In this document: positions 3,381 to 18,692 of the stretch, one piece after another
Position numbering within the stretch: position 1 is the stretch's first letter
Layout: every line of letters begins with the position of its first letter
Virus record (IMG/VR): IMGVR_UViG_3300038701_002089
Coordinates: 1-24,286 of that record
Direction: 5' to 3' (one strand)
Length of the DNA: 24,286 bases
Origin: a virus
Position numbers and translations under genes: made by a program
Notes under the pieces: generated by a model
Seen by the model: the letters and a program-made list of their open reading frames with translations, nothing else
Database searches by the model: none
What the model was told of the DNA's origin: nothing

Positions 3381-3409
3381 AACCTAGCCTAGTCTGCGGC
3401 AGAAGTAAA
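3381..3409 (-). promoter_or_regulatory. Promoter A (phage promoter family, -35/-10)
   Basis: Minus strand: -35 TTTACT at 3409-3404, a spacer of exactly 17 nt and -10 TAGGTT at 3386-3381, with transcription expected near 3374. It shares the block TTTACTTCTGCC with five other sites in the window. The -10 is the weakest of the six. The -35 abuts the stop codon (3412-3410) of the gene before it. Confidence 0.7.
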
Positions 3410-5846: not shown

Positions 5847-5875
5847 TATATAAGTGCTTCTCCGGCAAAAGTAAA
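5847..5875 (-). promoter_or_regulatory. Promoter C (phage promoter family)
   Basis: Minus strand: -35 TTTACT at 5875-5870, a 17-nt spacer and -10 TATATA at 5852-5847. It carries the shared block TTTACTTTTGCC. It drives the unit beginning with the SpoT-like hydrolase. Its -35 begins at the base of the terminator hairpin 5876-5895, so the T-rich start of the promoter doubles as the terminator tail. Confidence 0.85.
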
Positions 5876-5895
5876 CCCCCGGACTTGTCCGGGGG
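5876..5895 (-). terminator. Intrinsic terminator-like hairpin
   Basis: A perfect inverted repeat, CCCCCGGAC-TT-GTCCGGGGG, of 9 bp. On the minus strand it is followed by TTTACTTTTG, an interrupted T tract. It lies just past the stop of the gene at 5902-6159 and should end the unit that starts at promoter D. The T tract is imperfect, so efficiency is uncertain. Confidence 0.75.
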
Positions 5896-5901
5896 CCTTA
5901 T

Positions 5902-7302: not shown

Positions 7303-7442
7303 ACTCGGAGGTGGGACTTGAACCCACAGTCTTTATTTACATTTACTCGTGTTTCGAACCACTTTCAAAAACCCCGCCCTTTTCTAAGGCCATTTACCTC
7401 AACCATAGCGAGGAGGCGGTTTACCAATTAACCTACTCCGAA
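7303..7442 (-). tRNA. Enlarged tRNA-like element with interrupted anticodon/variable region
   Basis: The 5' part has an acceptor strand TTCGGAG (7442-7436), TA, and a D arm GGTT-AATTGGTA-AACC. The 3' part has a perfect T arm GTGGG-TTCAAGT-CCCAC and the matching acceptor strand CTCCGAG (7310-7304). The outer 7-bp stem therefore closes, with one U-G pair. Between D and T arms lie about 86 nt instead of the usual 21-27. CCTC/GAGG pairs around a 12-nt loop next to the D arm. A second candidate arm, GCCT-TAGAAAA-GGGC, has a 7-nt loop with GAA where an anticodon would sit, but lacks U33. There is no encoded CCA. It could be a tRNA with an insertion, a decaying tRNA, or a tRNA mimic. It is too small for a group I intron. 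Confidence 0.55.
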
Positions 7443-7846: not shown

Positions 7847-8055
7847 AGTTGGCTCGTAAAAAATCTCTCGCGCGATATCTCTCTGGCTTCTATAATACCT
7901 TTGTCTGTGAGCCGGCAAGTTGTTTTGTCAATATGCCCACTATTCCCGAGGAACTCTATCGCCGCTGACAAGGCCGCCCCTTGGGTCATATCGATGCCAT
8001 CATATATGTCAGCAAGGACTTTTCTTTCAAAGCCACATAATCCAATATCCCTCAT
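7837..8055 (-). CDS. Small winged-helix-like protein overlapping tRNA-Arg (72 aa)
   Basis: The protein starts MRDIGLCGFERKVLADIYDG at the ATG 8055, in a TGATG overlap with the previous stop. The pattern GAALSAAIEFLGNSGHIDKT followed by TCRLTDKGIIEAREI resembles the end of winged-helix domains (helix, a turn at GHI, a beta hairpin, then LTDKG). A small DNA-binding role is therefore plausible but unproven. The stop TAG falls inside tRNA-Arg, so processing of the tRNA would remove the 3' end of this mRNA. Confidence 0.68.
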   Translation of the reverse strand: MRDIGLCGFERKVLADIYDGIDMTQGAALSAAIEFLGNSGHIDKTTCRLTDKGIIEAREISRERFFTSQLLS

Positions 8056-8369
8056 CAGATGTAAATCCCATAGCCGCTAAAGCAATTATCTAAAACTGCT
8101 TTCGTGAATTCATAATATAATTTTGAGATGATGTCTTCCCTATATGGTCGAACGGAGAAGGACGAAACTGGTTCGGATGAACTATATACGCTATCGCCCT
8201 TAGAGAACCGAAAATGAAATTCCTTGATATATGGGCAACCAATAACGGTAAGAACTTTTTCGTGTTTGAGGCTCTCAGCATCATATATCGGCCAGACCAT
8301 TGTAGATGCCCAGCCGTGCCCGCCGGAATCCTCTCTCGTCTTCATGTTTATGACTAGGTCAACTCGCAT
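8055..8369 (-). CDS. Hypothetical protein (104 aa)
   Basis: The start is the ATG at 8369 (MRVDLVINMKTREDSGGHGW), with AAGGGGATTACA upstream. The TTG-initiated extension to 8408 would enter the inverted repeat and is rejected. The chain is mixed alpha/beta and ends in GYGIYI. It is the first protein gene after promoter D and the structured RNA, with its ribosome binding site immediately next to the left arm of the 21-bp inverted repeat. Translation may therefore respond to that structure. No family is recognised. Confidence 0.7.
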   Translation of the reverse strand: MRVDLVINMKTREDSGGHGWASTMVWPIYDAESLKHEKVLTVIGCPYIKEFHFRFSKGDSVYSSSEPVSSFSVRPYREDIISKLYYEFTKAVLDNCFSGYGIYI

Positions 8370-8382
8370 TGTAATCCCCTTA

Positions 8383-8492
8383 ATAACATAACGGAGCGCT
8401 AGGCCCAAACTGTTGCTCTACAAAACAACAATTTTCAGTAAGAAGGAGGTTGCATGGATATAAACCATTTACCTAGCGCTCCGTTATGTTAT
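8383..8492 (-). repeat. 21-bp perfect inverted repeat with 68-nt loop
   Basis: Positions 8383-8403 and 8472-8492 are exact reverse complements over 21 bp (core CGGAGCGCTAGG/CCTAGCGCTCCG). As RNA this gives a long uninterrupted helix. The 68-nt loop contains smaller possible hairpins on the minus strand (ATGG-tttatat-CCAT and GTTG-ttttgtagag-CAAC). There is no T tract after it, so it is not a standard terminator. It directly follows the RNA fold at 8494-8626 and directly precedes the ribosome binding site of the gene at 8055-8369. I see no target-site duplication. Confidence 0.9.
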
Positions 8493-8493
8493 C

Positions 8494-8626
8494 TGGAAGG
8501 AGGTGGGGTGCCTAACCCACCGACTCTAGAATTCTATTGGGGGTAAGTGCTCAGGCAAATGGACACTTGAATTCTAGATGCTTTATTCTCGGGCTGTCCC
8601 GATGAGGCTCTTAAGCTATCCTTCCA
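8494..8626 (-). ncRNA. Candidate new structured RNA: closed multi-helix junction with kissing loops
   Basis: The minus-strand RNA forms P1 TGGAAGGA/TCCTTCCA (8626-8619 with 8501-8494), closing the domain. Inside are a small hairpin GCT-TAAG-AGC (8616-8607) and P3 TCGGG-ACAG-CCCGA (8602-8589). P4 is TCTAGAATTC plus AAGTG paired with CACTT and GAATTCTAGA (15 bp with a 10-nt one-sided bulge, 8578-8525). P5 is GGTGGG-TTAGGCAC-CCCACC (8521-8502), which abuts P1. The P5 loop TTAGGCA can pair with TGCCTGA in the P4 loop over 7 bp, including one G-U. On the other strand that pair would be A-C, which supports minus-strand transcription. Promoter D predicts a start near 8625, at the base of P1. No family is recognised. 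Confidence 0.8.
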
Positions 8627-8632
8627 AATTCT

Positions 8633-8661
8633 TTTATATATCACTCTGCGTCAGAAGTAAA
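8633..8661 (-). promoter_or_regulatory. Promoter D (phage promoter family), drives the structured RNA
   Basis: Minus strand: -35 TTTACT at 8661-8656, a 17-nt spacer and -10 TATAAA at 8638-8633, with a start expected near 8626-8625. It carries the shared block TTTACTTCTGAC. It is embedded in the 3' end of the SLOG gene, whose TGA (8643-8641) lies inside the spacer. Downstream are the structured RNA, small genes and the tRNA cluster. Confidence 0.83.
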
Positions 8662-9093
8662 GCAAAAAGGGCTGAATTTGTGATTTAAAAAATTTTGCCC
8701 CAACAAATCCCCCTCCTGAGAGTATTCGGTAAATCCTTGGTGCGCTATAGATATGCTTAGTGTTTTAACACCCTTCTTTATAGCGTTCTTTGTCATGTGG
8801 CCGGTGCCAGAGCCGCCGGGAAAGGCTATGACTAAATCAGGTTCTCCGTCCCGTAGCATCTGGTCGTTTCTAATGAACCCTGCTGCCTTACCATGTAAGG
8901 TCCATTGTGCCGGAAATACTTTCAGTTGTTTATTTCTAGCATGTGCCCAGGCTTCTGCTAGGTTGTCGGCTCCGCGCGCGCCGCCACTAATCACGGTGCC
9001 AATTCCGTACTCCTTGTCTATCTGGTCTAGGATTTGAAAGGTTGCCTGGGCGTCATCCCAATTCCTACCGCCGCAAATAATAGCTGTTATCAA
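8641..9093 (-). CDS. SLOG-domain protein, YspA/DUF2493 family (150 aa)
   Basis: The Rossmann-like SLOG signature is clear: ITAIICGGRNWDD at the N-terminus, VISGGARGADNLAEAWA at 34-50, PAQWTLHGKAAGFIRNDQML at 61-80 and LVIAFPGGSGTGHM at 87-100. SLOG proteins bind nucleotides or nucleotide derivatives; the phage members have no settled function. The start is a TTG at 9093 overlapping the previous stop (TTGA) with AAGGAG upstream. No ATG precedes the conserved ICGGR, so the non-ATG start is required. The last 20 residues are encoded over promoter D. Confidence 0.88.
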   Translation of the reverse strand: MITAIICGGRNWDDAQATFQILDQIDKEYGIGTVISGGARGADNLAEAWAHARNKQLKVFPAQWTLHGKAAGFIRNDQMLRDGEPDLVIAFPGGSGTGHMTKNAIKKGVKTLSISIAHQGFTEYSQEGDLLGQNFLNHKFSPFCFTSDAE

Positions 9094-15654: not shown

Positions 15655-16201
15655 TATCCATAAGCTCCTTCCACCAAGAAGAATCTTCAGTATTGGGACA
15701 AGCCAATATCTCATTAACGGTATCCTTAATCTCGTCCCAAAGTGCCATGTATGTAATAGCTCTCATACCGTTATTGAACGTGCCTTGTATATGGACATTT
15801 CCCAGCTTTAATTCTTCGTGCGCCCATAATATGAGCTCTAACATGTCGCAAATCTTTAAAATGCCGTGACCTCTTTCATCCAAGTCAACGTTGCAATTTA
15901 AATAATGGTCAACTTTGTCCTCGGCTTGGTGGAGCACCTCAGCCAACTTGTTCCCAGTCATTGGGTACTTGGCCGGGTATGGACTATCGCCCACCCATCT
16001 CTCAGGAACATCGTGCCACAATCCTGCTTTAATTAGGTCAACTGTGACATCGTTAGGAAAGAGGAGGATGATTAAGTTAGCCACGTTCCACTGGTGCTCA
16101 CCAGTTCTGTATGACCTTTGCTTAATGACCGTATGCATACGGTCAACCCAGCCGCTTTCTCTAAATGCTACTACTTTTTCAGCTGTACTCAACACCGTCA
16201 T
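15635..16201 (-). CDS. YfbR-like HD phosphohydrolase (188 aa)
   Basis: HD-domain residues are in place: EHQWNVANL (His36), GLWHDVPE (His63-Asp64, Glu67), WVGDSPYPAKY (Asp72) and ILKICDMLEL (Asp119). This is the YfbR/5'-deoxynucleotidase group, which removes phosphate from deoxynucleotides with a divalent metal. Related phage enzymes such as DatZ remove a competing dNTP. Placed next to the ThyA-like enzyme, it may adjust the nucleotide pool for modified DNA; that role is inference. The ATG at 16201 follows AGAAGGGCTTCAG and overlaps the ThyA-like gene by 23 bp. No PurZ is seen. Confidence 0.88.
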   Translation of the reverse strand: MTVLSTAEKVVAFRESGWVDRMHTVIKQRSYRTGEHQWNVANLIILLFPNDVTVDLIKAGLWHDVPERWVGDSPYPAKYPMTGNKLAEVLHQAEDKVDHYLNCNVDLDERGHGILKICDMLELILWAHEELKLGNVHIQGTFNNGMRAITYMALWDEIKDTVNEILACPNTEDSSWWKELMDNAKVRK

Positions 16202-17237
16202 CTGAAGCCCTTCTGAAGCGTAAAAACCTCCGCCTGATCCATTCCTCAGCTGCCTTTCTCCAATCGTTGTCGAGAGGCATTTGAGAGAGGATTTCTAGCG
16301 GAATTTCATATTTGTCGCTTCCTTTGCCATTCTTAAACTCAGCGTGGGCGTTCCACATTGGAATGGCTATTCTTCTAAAAAATGCGTGCCTGTATCCGAT
16401 GGTCGTAGGGTTGTCCAAGAACATAAGTAAGTCCTGGTCCCAACTAGACCGCCCCTTTGGGCCTTTCTGTCCTTCAGACATAAGTGGGAAAGGCACAACC
16501 CCACCTAGTGGACTATAGGGACACTGTCCTTCGGTTCTGTTTTTCGATAAGCTGGCAAGCTCTTCGTAAAGTTCTTCATAAGCGTGATAGTTGTCGCTGA
16601 TTTGCCAATACCTGCCAACCGGTACAGATAGGGAGCATGCTATGTACTCTTGTAGGAAGGAGAAGTGGACAGCGTTTGCTCCGTAAGCGCCCCAAATTAT
16701 ATCGTTAGAACGGTTGAAGACAGACATGTCCAACTCGCCGTAGCGATTTATCTGAAGATGGAGGGTAACGTTACAAGGAACATCTTTACCACCTTCGTCA
16801 GCCACTCTGGGATCGTTTCTCCCATCCCACATAGCTATTACAACGCGGCGATCCTCTTTATTATTAGACAGTCTGGTTATGGCCCAGTCTATCTGATCGA
16901 TGTCGAAGAAGGAACGCCATCTCCATCCATACGCGCCCCACATAACCTTGCCGTCGTCGCTATAGTTTTGCATATTTTTAGCAAATCTCTTGACAAAGGC
17001 TAAGTCGTTGCGACCCGCTAACATCCAAAGAGACTCAAAGAAGTGGAAGAAGGGATTAGCATCCCTCTTCTCATCAAATATGACGCGCTCTGTCGGCTCC
17101 TTGTATAGCGTGGTTACAGGCTGACTAGAAACTCTGACTGTACCATTTCTAGAGCCGCTTGTATAACCCTCTTCCTGGAGATAGTGTAGACCAGCTCCGA
17201 GCGCGTCATTTACGTTTCTTACTTCTAATACTTTCAC
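16179..17237 (-). CDS. Thymidylate synthase superfamily enzyme (TS or dUMP/dCMP hydroxymethylase, 352 aa)
   Basis: The ThyA-fold landmarks are PFFHFFESLWMLAGRNDL, EDRRVVIAMWD (the Arg pair), VPCNVTLHLQ (nucleophilic Cys), FNRSNDIIWGAYGANAVHFS and ISDNYHAY. The enzyme adds a one-carbon group from methylene-folate to C5 of a pyrimidine nucleotide. The residue matching TS Asn177, which selects dUMP over dCMP, is Asn only if a one-residue insertion is accepted. The chain is about 90 residues longer than TS and lacks the usual C-terminal end. The start is a GTG (GTGA overlap) with AAGGAAGACGCTGC upstream. Neighbouring modification genes favour a hydroxymethylase, but TS is possible. Confidence 0.88.
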   Translation of the reverse strand: MKVLEVRNVNDALGAGLHYLQEEGYTSGSRNGTVRVSSQPVTTLYKEPTERVIFDEKRDANPFFHFFESLWMLAGRNDLAFVKRFAKNMQNYSDDGKVMWGAYGWRWRSFFDIDQIDWAITRLSNNKEDRRVVIAMWDGRNDPRVADEGGKDVPCNVTLHLQINRYGELDMSVFNRSNDIIWGAYGANAVHFSFLQEYIACSLSVPVGRYWQISDNYHAYEELYEELASLSKNRTEGQCPYSPLGGVVPFPLMSEGQKGPKGRSSWDQDLLMFLDNPTTIGYRHAFFRRIAIPMWNAHAEFKNGKGSDKYEIPLEILSQMPLDNDWRKAAEEWIRRRFLRFRRASDDGVEYS

Positions 17238-17878
17238 GCAGCGTCTTCCTTAACAGGCAGGTGTACCAAGTTGTTAACTTGCACACGTTTGGCTGCCGGC
17301 AAGTTCTTAGGAATAACAACTGTGTCCAGCTGCTCAACGAATGGTTTGATTTCAGGCCAGATAGAAAGCAACTTGCCAACCGTAGTTACCGAAGCCAAAA
17401 TACTTAACACTTCATTGCGGGCTGACTGAATAGCGTCGATAAGGTCTTCTGCCCTAGTTTTTAATTCACTGTAATGGGTGGCTTCCCTAGAAGTTGCTGG
17501 CCACTCGTGGGCGCAGCCAAGATCGTAAGGTAGAATTCTATCTTCTCTGAACTTGGCATAAGGTATGACGGAACCCGTTATATCATCCACCCAACAGCCC
17601 AGAAACAGTCTCATGTTCCCGCCGAAAGTCAGTTTGGCATAGTCCGAACCGAATTTCATATCGAAGCTTGAATACTTGTGGAACCACTTTTTGTTGGAAG
17701 CCGCTTTCATTGTATCTATGATATCCAGTTCCCGTTGAGTGAACAGCGTCTCATACATCTCGTCAACGAAAACAGACAACTCGTTCTCAAGGTCAGCTAC
17801 ATCATTGCTGAACCTGTGCTTTAACACGCCGATACAAATATCTTCACGCATTTCCCTATTTAGTCTCTGCGTCGCCAT
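17234..17878 (-). CDS. Nmad5-like nucleotide-modification-associated protein (214 aa)
   Basis: The N-terminus RLNREMREDICIGVLKHRF and the C-terminal VTTVGKLLSIWPEIKPFV match the layout of the Nmad5 family, which was defined by its recurrent association with phage DNA hypermodification genes; its activity is not established. The middle is a beta-rich region (KFGSDYAKLTFGGNMRLF). I prefer the ATG at 17878, because GAGG sits 9 nt upstream; the ATG at 17887 is too close to it. The gene lies between the glycosyltransferase and the ThyA-like enzyme. The family call is from pattern memory. Confidence 0.78.
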   Translation of the reverse strand: MATQRLNREMREDICIGVLKHRFSNDVADLENELSVFVDEMYETLFTQRELDIIDTMKAASNKKWFHKYSSFDMKFGSDYAKLTFGGNMRLFLGCWVDDITGSVIPYAKFREDRILPYDLGCAHEWPATSREATHYSELKTRAEDLIDAIQSARNEVLSILASVTTVGKLLSIWPEIKPFVEQLDTVVIPKNLPAAKRVQVNNLVHLPVKEDAA

Positions 17879-18692
17879 TCTTTTCATCCTCTTTCTGTGA
17901 AGACTGGTAAGCCTTCTTCCAATACACCGTTACTTCCTTGCGCGTCCCAAAACCTTCTCTGTCGGTCTTGTTCTGCTTTTGCCTAACCCTTACAAATCCG
18001 GGGTGGAGTTCGGCGAGGCGCTCAGCCCCAGCATTGTGCACCTCATGTGTGCGCCACACCGAACAGCCCCCAGCGGCTTGGGTCTTCTTCTGCCCTTGGG
18101 CATAGGAATAATAAATCTTAGATTTATGACCCATCCTCAACAGTTGTAAGGCAATATCAAAATCTTCCATAACCTCCACCCTTTCATGGGAGCAGGATAA
18201 ATATTCTTTAGTGCGGTAGGCTAAAAATCTCATGTACCGAGTATTTTCTACGAACTCGTCGCGCACCCTGTTATTTCCTTCACGTCCAGAAATGCCCACG
18301 TGAGCGTAGGTGTCGAGGTCGTCGTATATATCGTTGATAAGATTATTCAGCTGCCTGTTGTCTGGAGCCGTAAGCTTCCACCAGTCGTCTTTATCAGTGA
18401 ACTGGTTTTCCCTAATATAGAATTCTATATCGTCGTCCAACATTAAAAACTTTTCGATGCCTTCTTCTAGGCAATAGTCCGCGATATATTTTCGCGTTGG
18501 AACTATAGTTTTAATGTGTTCTGGCAAGATCAGGAGGTTACAATCAAATTGGTCCCTGAGTTTTAAATAGTCCATAGCTTCGTGCGTCTGGCAGACGATC
18601 GTAGCCTCTTGGGCGTCCGAAGCAGAAAGATTTGCTAACGTGCAATTTTTAGTTTCGTGAGCCCTCCCTAGAGAGGGGATAAATATAGACAT
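17856..18692 (-). CDS. GT-A glycosyltransferase, TET-associated/phage DNA-modification type (278 aa)
   Basis: IFIPSLGRAHETKN opens the nucleotide-sugar fold, TIVPTRKYIADYC precedes FLMLDDDIEFYIR with the metal-binding DDD at 86-88, and MEDFDIALQLLRMGH at 175-189 supplies the catalytic-region acids. GGCSVWRTHEVHNAGAERLA followed by ELHPGFV (208-234) is the C-terminal block typical of TET-associated glycosyltransferases, which decorate hydroxymethylated pyrimidines in phage DNA. The ATG at 18692 follows CGGAGGAAAG and is the first gene after promoter E. The sugar and base are unknown. No TET enzyme lies in the window, so the hydroxymethyl base would have to come from the ThyA-like enzyme. Confidence 0.82.
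   Translation of the reverse strand: MSIFIPSLGRAHETKNCTLANLSASDAQEATIVCQTHEAMDYLKLRDQFDCNLLILPEHIKTIVPTRKYIADYCLEEGIEKFLMLDDDIEFYIRENQFTDKDDWWKLTAPDNRQLNNLINDIYDDLDTYAHVGISGREGNNRVRDEFVENTRYMRFLAYRTKEYLSCSHERVEVMEDFDIALQLLRMGHKSKIYYSYAQGQKKTQAAGGCSVWRTHEVHNAGAERLAELHPGFVRVRQKQNKTDREGFGTRKEVTVYWKKAYQSSQKEDEKNGDAETK

Follow-up and report, generated by a model that had tools for sequence, protein, structure and literature searches.

The leader of the phage lambda N transcript is laid out as promoter, RNA element (nutL), long RNase III hairpin and Shine-Dalgarno sequence, in that order. In T4-type phages, the gene 32 leader carries a pseudoknot upstream of the ribosome-binding site. In phage HK022, the putL element is located just downstream of the PL promoter; it is about 70 nt long and made of two stem-loops, needs no dedicated protein factors and is effective on terminators at a distance of 10 kb or more (PMC9378689). 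Stabilization of mRNA by 5′-terminal stem-loops is described in the work on ompA, papA and aprE cited in PMC3997798, and RppH of B. subtilis requires at least two unpaired 5′ nucleotides (PMC3997798). The ROOL and GOLLD RNAs are phage-encoded, are found near tRNA genes and contain kissing loops (PMC12286853).

The region analysed here (8626-8494, minus strand) belongs to a 24 286-bp fragment, an IMG/VR virus record, which is called the window in this study. Like HK022 putRNA (putL), it is predicted to be folded and to lie at a phage transcript start, just past a sigma-70-type promoter (PMC9378689). Its start-proximal location is thus that of put. Its architecture is not: put has about 70 nt and two stem-loops, while the 133 nt seen here comprise a closing stem, several helices and a proposed loop-loop contact, and a 21-bp hairpin comes next. 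The order of the parts is shared with the lambda N leader, but no nut elements or N-like protein were identified here. As with the ompA and papA 5′-terminal stabilizing leaders and the T4-type gene 32 leader pseudoknot, a structured 5′ end precedes a ribosome-binding site; the present fold is much more elaborate and its role in stabilization or regulation is a prediction only. tRNA genes are close by, as for ROOL and GOLLD. However, GOLLD is often longer than 800 nt and ROOL has several hundred nucleotides, both being multi-domain, whereas a 133-nt domain within a leader-like stretch of 256 nt is seen here and no covariance-model match was obtained. The region had been set apart from these two families in the original prediction, and its much smaller size and the lack of any Rfam match bear this out.

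Phage fragment and gene order

The window carries replication and nucleotide-metabolism genes. Its primase-helicase is 42-46% identical to the counterparts of Pseudanabaena phage Pam3 and of Mesyanzhinovviridae, and PolA, a thymidylate synthase, a ribonucleotide reductase and a Dda-like helicase are also encoded. Judging from these proteins, the source phage is a distant relative of the YuA-like (Mesyanzhinovviridae-like) phages. All recognized genes of the window are on the minus strand. The genes flanking the region are:

11396-9090, minus strand: primase, first in the local transcription order
9093-8641, minus strand: SLOG-family protein, directly after the primase
8055-8369, minus strand: 104-aa ORF without family match, first after the leader

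The SLOG-family gene and the 104-aa ORF are separated by a 271-bp gap. Beyond the 104-aa ORF come a 72-aa ORF, a tRNA-Arg, a 76-aa ORF, a tRNA-Met and, last, a tRNA-like sequence that contains an insert. This last sequence (7303-7442, minus strand) scores 34.5 bits with the Rfam tRNA model, above gathering, and its acceptor, D and T arms are normal. It is detected by ARAGORN only if an anticodon-loop intron is permitted (57 nt, called tRNA-Ala CGC). The long insert is capable of independent folding, and the sequence may be a phage tRNA that carries an intron or whose anticodon domain is altered. Elsewhere in the window (16179-18692), a thymidylate synthase-like protein is encoded near a match to the beta-glucosyl-HMC-alpha-glucosyltransferase family (phrog_842, E 5e-57), a possible DNA base modification module.

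Promoter and predicted transcription start

The following elements precede the folded region:

8633-8661, minus strand: promoter, with -35 TTTACT (8661-8656), a 17-nt spacer and -10 TATAAA (8638-8633)
8661-8652, minus strand: motif TTTACTTCTG, containing the -35 TTTACT, one of six exact copies of TTTACTTYTG
8625-8626, minus strand: predicted transcription start (+1), 7-8 nt past the -10

The six exact copies of TTTACTTYTG in the window (starts at 3409, 4008, 5875, 8661, 18745 and 20099) are all on the minus strand, for 0.15 expected. They sit inside or at the edges of intergenic gaps, most of them with a TATA-like -10 about 17 nt away. A conserved TTYTG after the -35 is unusual for plain sigma-70 promoters. 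The copies may form a family of phage promoters, or be an operator that overlaps the -35. A promoter had already been proposed at this place, and the recurrence of the motif together with a -10 at 17 nt supports it independently. From the -10 at this spacing, the +1 is predicted at about 8626-8625, which coincides within 1-2 bases with the outer end of the closing stem P1, in agreement with the start that had been placed at the first bases of this stem. The remaining five promoters precede genes with short leaders. Weaker versions of the motif are found after the primase gene in two relatives (L010 and L012), so a promoter at this gene boundary seems to be conserved, but not the leader.

A GC-rich hairpin, CCCCCGGACAAGTCCGGGGG, is present at 5869-5901 (minus strand). 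Its T-rich tail doubles as the -35 motif of the next promoter, a terminator and a promoter being fused there.

Structure of domain 1

Folding of the minus strand gave the following features:

8494-8626, minus strand: structured domain 1, 133 nt (MFE -48.8, z -5.5)
8626-8619/8501-8494, minus strand: closing stem P1, 8 bp, pair probability near 1
8607-8616, minus strand: P2, 3-bp hairpin GCU-UAAG-AGC (8616-8614/8609-8607), pair probabilities 0.76-0.89
8587-8605, minus strand: P3, hairpin UC-A-UCGGG-ACAG-CCCGA-GA (8605-8598/8593-8587), main pairs 0.96-1.0
8523-8581, minus strand: P4 arm, with lower helix 8581-8569/8534-8523 (UCUAGAAUUC/GAAUUCUAGA)
8568-8563/8550-8545, minus strand: P4 upper helix, 6 bp, above a one-sided 10-nt bulge (8544-8535)
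8502-8521, minus strand: P5, hairpin GGUGGG-UUAGGCAC-CCCACC (8521-8516/8507-8502), directly adjoining P1

The minimum free energy was -48.8 kcal/mol, compared with -31.1 ± 3.2 in dinucleotide shuffles (z -5.5), and none of the 200 shuffles folded as well. The plus strand of 8494-8626 gave z -3.5. Pair probabilities were mostly 0.9-1.0 and were near 1 in P1, P4 and P5. Among the 201 intergenic gaps of the window and of 86 related loci, the gap containing domain 1 ranked second by z. The frames of a coarse sliding-window folding scan were out of register with domain 1 and its values are not directly comparable with z -5.5. The original prediction was thus right in describing a compact, structured minus-strand RNA closed by an 8-bp stem. 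The coordinates of this stem and of the internal helices are all correct, three to four internal helices are well defined and the region is indeed devoid of a long coding frame. The last internal helix had been said to stack on the closing stem: no linker separates the last base of P5 (8502) from the 3′ strand of P1, which starts at 8501, so stacking of P5 on P1 is possible.

A contact between the loops of P4 and P5 had also been proposed. Its two strands are:

8551-8557, minus strand: loop strand UGCCUGA
8509-8515, minus strand: loop strand UUAGGCA

The two loops (TTAGGCA/TGCCTGA) are complementary over 7 nt with a single G-U (A-C if read from the plus strand, as predicted); taken alone, this is only modestly unlikely. 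With loops as large as these, such complementarity arises by chance in 0.4-0.6% of cases. The scanned strands (about 2.4 Mb) contained 492 instances of a closing stem enclosing two hairpins with complementary loops, compared with 334 in shuffles, and the descriptor search built on this motif was rejected as too unspecific. Since chance complementarity reaches this level and the generic motif is frequent in shuffled DNA, the kissing contact is only suggestive. The geometry of P4 (12-bp lower helix, 10-nt one-sided bulge, 6-bp upper helix) would favour it: folding back at the bulge would bring the P4 loop about level with the loop of the 6-bp P5.

Domain 2 and the extent of the leader

A second domain, overlooked in the original prediction, directly abuts P1 on its 3′ side:

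8382-8493, minus strand: domain 2, perfect 21-bp stem (8492-8472/8403-8383) with one G-U at each end and a 68-nt loop
8407-8434, minus strand: inner 12-bp hairpin within domain 2, whose three G-U pairs favour the minus strand
8442-8450, minus strand: ACCUCCUUC, resembling an anti-Shine-Dalgarno, largely unpaired within the loop of domain 2
8376-8381, minus strand: Shine-Dalgarno AAGGGG, just past domain 2, with the ATG next

Apart from the 21-bp repeat, the window has no perfect inverted repeat of 14 bp or more within 300 nt, and domain 2 (about 110 nt) gave z -8.4. The ACCUCCUUC of domain 2 is a second copy; the first, 54 nt away, falls within P5/P1 (8504-8496). In the predicted ensemble, pairing of the Shine-Dalgarno sequence is only partial; its duplex with the ACCUCCUUC loop was calculated at -7.3 kcal/mol. 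For the 270-nt leader region as a whole, z was -7.8. The energy favours the minus strand (-102.8 vs -95.8 on the plus strand, a difference of 7 kcal/mol); seven G-U pairs of the predicted fold are A-C mismatches on the opposite strand. No intrinsic terminator was found on the minus strand between domain 1 and the 104-aa ORF, and the two domains fill the 256 nt ahead of the Shine-Dalgarno and ATG of this ORF. The end of the RNA had been set at 8494, which is wrong: in the absence of a terminator, domain 1 continues into the hairpin of about 110 nt and then into a Shine-Dalgarno sequence, which argues for a leader and not for a stand-alone RNA. The likely unit is a 256-nt 5′ leader with two stacked domains, rather than an isolated RNA of 133 nt.

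Read on the other strand, the repeat at 8442-8450 and 8496-8504 is GAAGGAGGT, that is, a perfect plus-strand Shine-Dalgarno or a minus-strand anti-Shine-Dalgarno. A plus-strand ORF of 30 aa (8454-8546) has GAAGGAGGT before its ATG, and the second copy precedes a second in-frame GTG.

Search for relatives

No Rfam family matched the region at the gathering score, in line with the original prediction. GOLLD and ROOL had no match at this score on the whole window and none on 8360-8700 searched up to E = 10; the sub-threshold matches to miRNA precursors (long hairpin) and to a plant snoRNA were dismissed as noise. With blastn on phage and plasmid sequences (E values up to 10), no phage matched the region; a 20-nt match in Rhizobium plasmids was attributed to chance. 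Close relatives of the neighbouring proteins were sought in IMG/VR and none was found for the SLOG protein or the primase; one locus (L004) had a single 14-residue protein match and was useless as a relative. Alignment of the primase gave 80 distant loci, the best one being 54% identical. No homologue of the RNA was detected in the 86 related loci by blastn or nhmmer. The covariance model that had been called for was built and matched nothing in about 1.9 Mb of loci (1.2 Mb from related loci, 0.7 Mb from pattern hits) and 25 whole records; coming from one sequence, it has a low sensitivity to distant relatives. Viral and genome collections were scanned for the kissing pattern, and no match listed has the architecture (checked by folding, model or script); the hit in L098 (Sutcliffiella) is a plain long hairpin. 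An 18-bp inverted repeat in L010 lies far downstream, in an apparent terminase region, and is unrelated. There, at L010:15627-15705, it is accompanied by GGGGAGTAAA/TTTACTCCCC repeats in a downstream gap probably near terminase genes; this is possibly a packaging or operator site.

As the nearest phages found have only about 54% primase identity, missing homologues are weak evidence against conservation. Without a homologue there is no evidence for selection on the pairs, and without a second copy there is neither covariation nor a class. The suggestion of a new phage RNA class is therefore unsupported: the leader is a single copy in all these searches, it matches no described family, and one sequence without relatives establishes no class. 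The region 8626-8494 is probably a real yet one-of-a-kind leader RNA, and the kind to which it would belong is that of structured phage leader RNAs.

Discussion

The reading that is tentatively favoured is that of a structured, cis-acting 5′ leader of about 256 nt for a minus-strand unit, with a stabilizing or processing role. From 8626/8625, transcription would proceed to the 104-aa ORF and on to the tRNA-bearing module. Given the predicted +1, P1 pairs from 8626/8625 with a probability near 1.0; the predicted +1 being the first paired base, no 5′ single strand is left, and the closing stem would hide the extreme 5′ end of the transcript. Domain 1 would be kept compact by two stacks (P5 on P1, P1 on the hairpin that follows) and probably also through the contact between the P4 and P5 loops. 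The long duplex of domain 2 would be a likely RNase III-type cut site just ahead of the ribosome-binding site. Together, the two domains would protect the transcript from 5′-end-dependent decay and set the choice of the processing site. Against this reading, a simple hairpin would suffice for stabilization; the elaborate fold and its putative tertiary contact suggest a more specific role. The short leaders behind the other five promoters also speak against it. The function of the leader is not readable from its sequence alone.

The best rival, second to the cis-acting leader and in itself unlikely, is a put-like antiterminator: the nascent leader would fold on emerging from the polymerase, stay on it and allow read-through of terminators in the downstream module. 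A folded element at +1 recalls HK022 putL just downstream of PL (PMC9378689), and a terminator-like GC hairpin with a T-rich sequence is found about 2.5 kb downstream (5901-5869). In the order of its parts, the region is also similar to the pL-nutL-RNase III hairpin-N leader of lambda. However, similarity to put in sequence or fold is not established, 133 nt with a kissing contact being another shape, and no boxA-like sequence was seen by eye. Moreover, the 5901-5869 hairpin is followed by its own promoter, which makes read-through unnecessary.

Somewhat less probable is a trans-acting small RNA, stand-alone or processed, whose ACCUCCUUC loop would cover Shine-Dalgarno sequences or which would bind a host protein; excision at the 21-bp stem would be possible. 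The two 9-nt anti-Shine-Dalgarno copies 54 nt apart, one of them largely unpaired in the domain 2 loop, fit this proposal, as does a compact fold near tRNAs, a setting like that of ROOL and GOLLD (PMC12286853). On the other hand, the 3′ end lacks any terminator, 9-mer repeats so close together are frequent by chance, and the first ACCUCCUUC copy is buried in P5/P1. A slightly lower likelihood is given to an undescribed RNA device, in which a kissing-loop domain at +1 is stacked coaxially on a 21-bp processing hairpin and modifies polymerase or ribosome. Such a device would drive the tRNA-bearing module through factor-free antitermination or anti-Shine-Dalgarno display.

Riboswitches are usually widespread, and a sensor leader for the downstream ORF (riboswitch, or ligand- or protein-sensing translational operator) is improbable with no homologues and no Rfam matches. 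A multi-helix junction with a loop-loop contact directly upstream of an ORF would suit a sensor, and the unpaired ACCUCCUUC loop could bind the Shine-Dalgarno AAGGGG at the calculated -7.3 kcal/mol; yet the 104-aa ORF has no known function and this Shine-Dalgarno is only partly paired in the ensemble. More improbable again is an element acting at the DNA level (protein-binding inverted repeat, insertion remnant or replication site), the RNA fold being a by-product. The Watson-Crick pairing of the 21-bp repeat is perfect, no other such repeat exists in the window and P4a is a near-palindromic TCTAGAATTC repeat. Nevertheless, the G-U pairs of the inner hairpin, P4 and the loop contact are meaningful only as minus-strand RNA, domain 1 adjoins the start site and no copies occur elsewhere. 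The 21-bp repeat was also considered, by eye, as an integron attC site or a MITE, and both readings were dropped. Finally, a spacer folding by chance or a short coding region is very improbable: conservation was found nowhere, kissing motifs are frequent in shuffled sequence and the plus-strand 30-aa ORF (8454-8546) has a perfect Shine-Dalgarno, but z reaches -5.5 and -8.4, the gap ranks 2 of 201, the recognized genes are all on the minus strand and a 36-aa minus-strand ORF (8644-8534) starts before the predicted +1, without a Shine-Dalgarno.

If the cis-acting leader is real, it would be a compact phage leader RNA with clear boundaries and an exactly predicted start, whose loop contact yields clear mutational predictions. 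It would then join the small number of phage RNAs that control a transcript by folding at its 5′ end.
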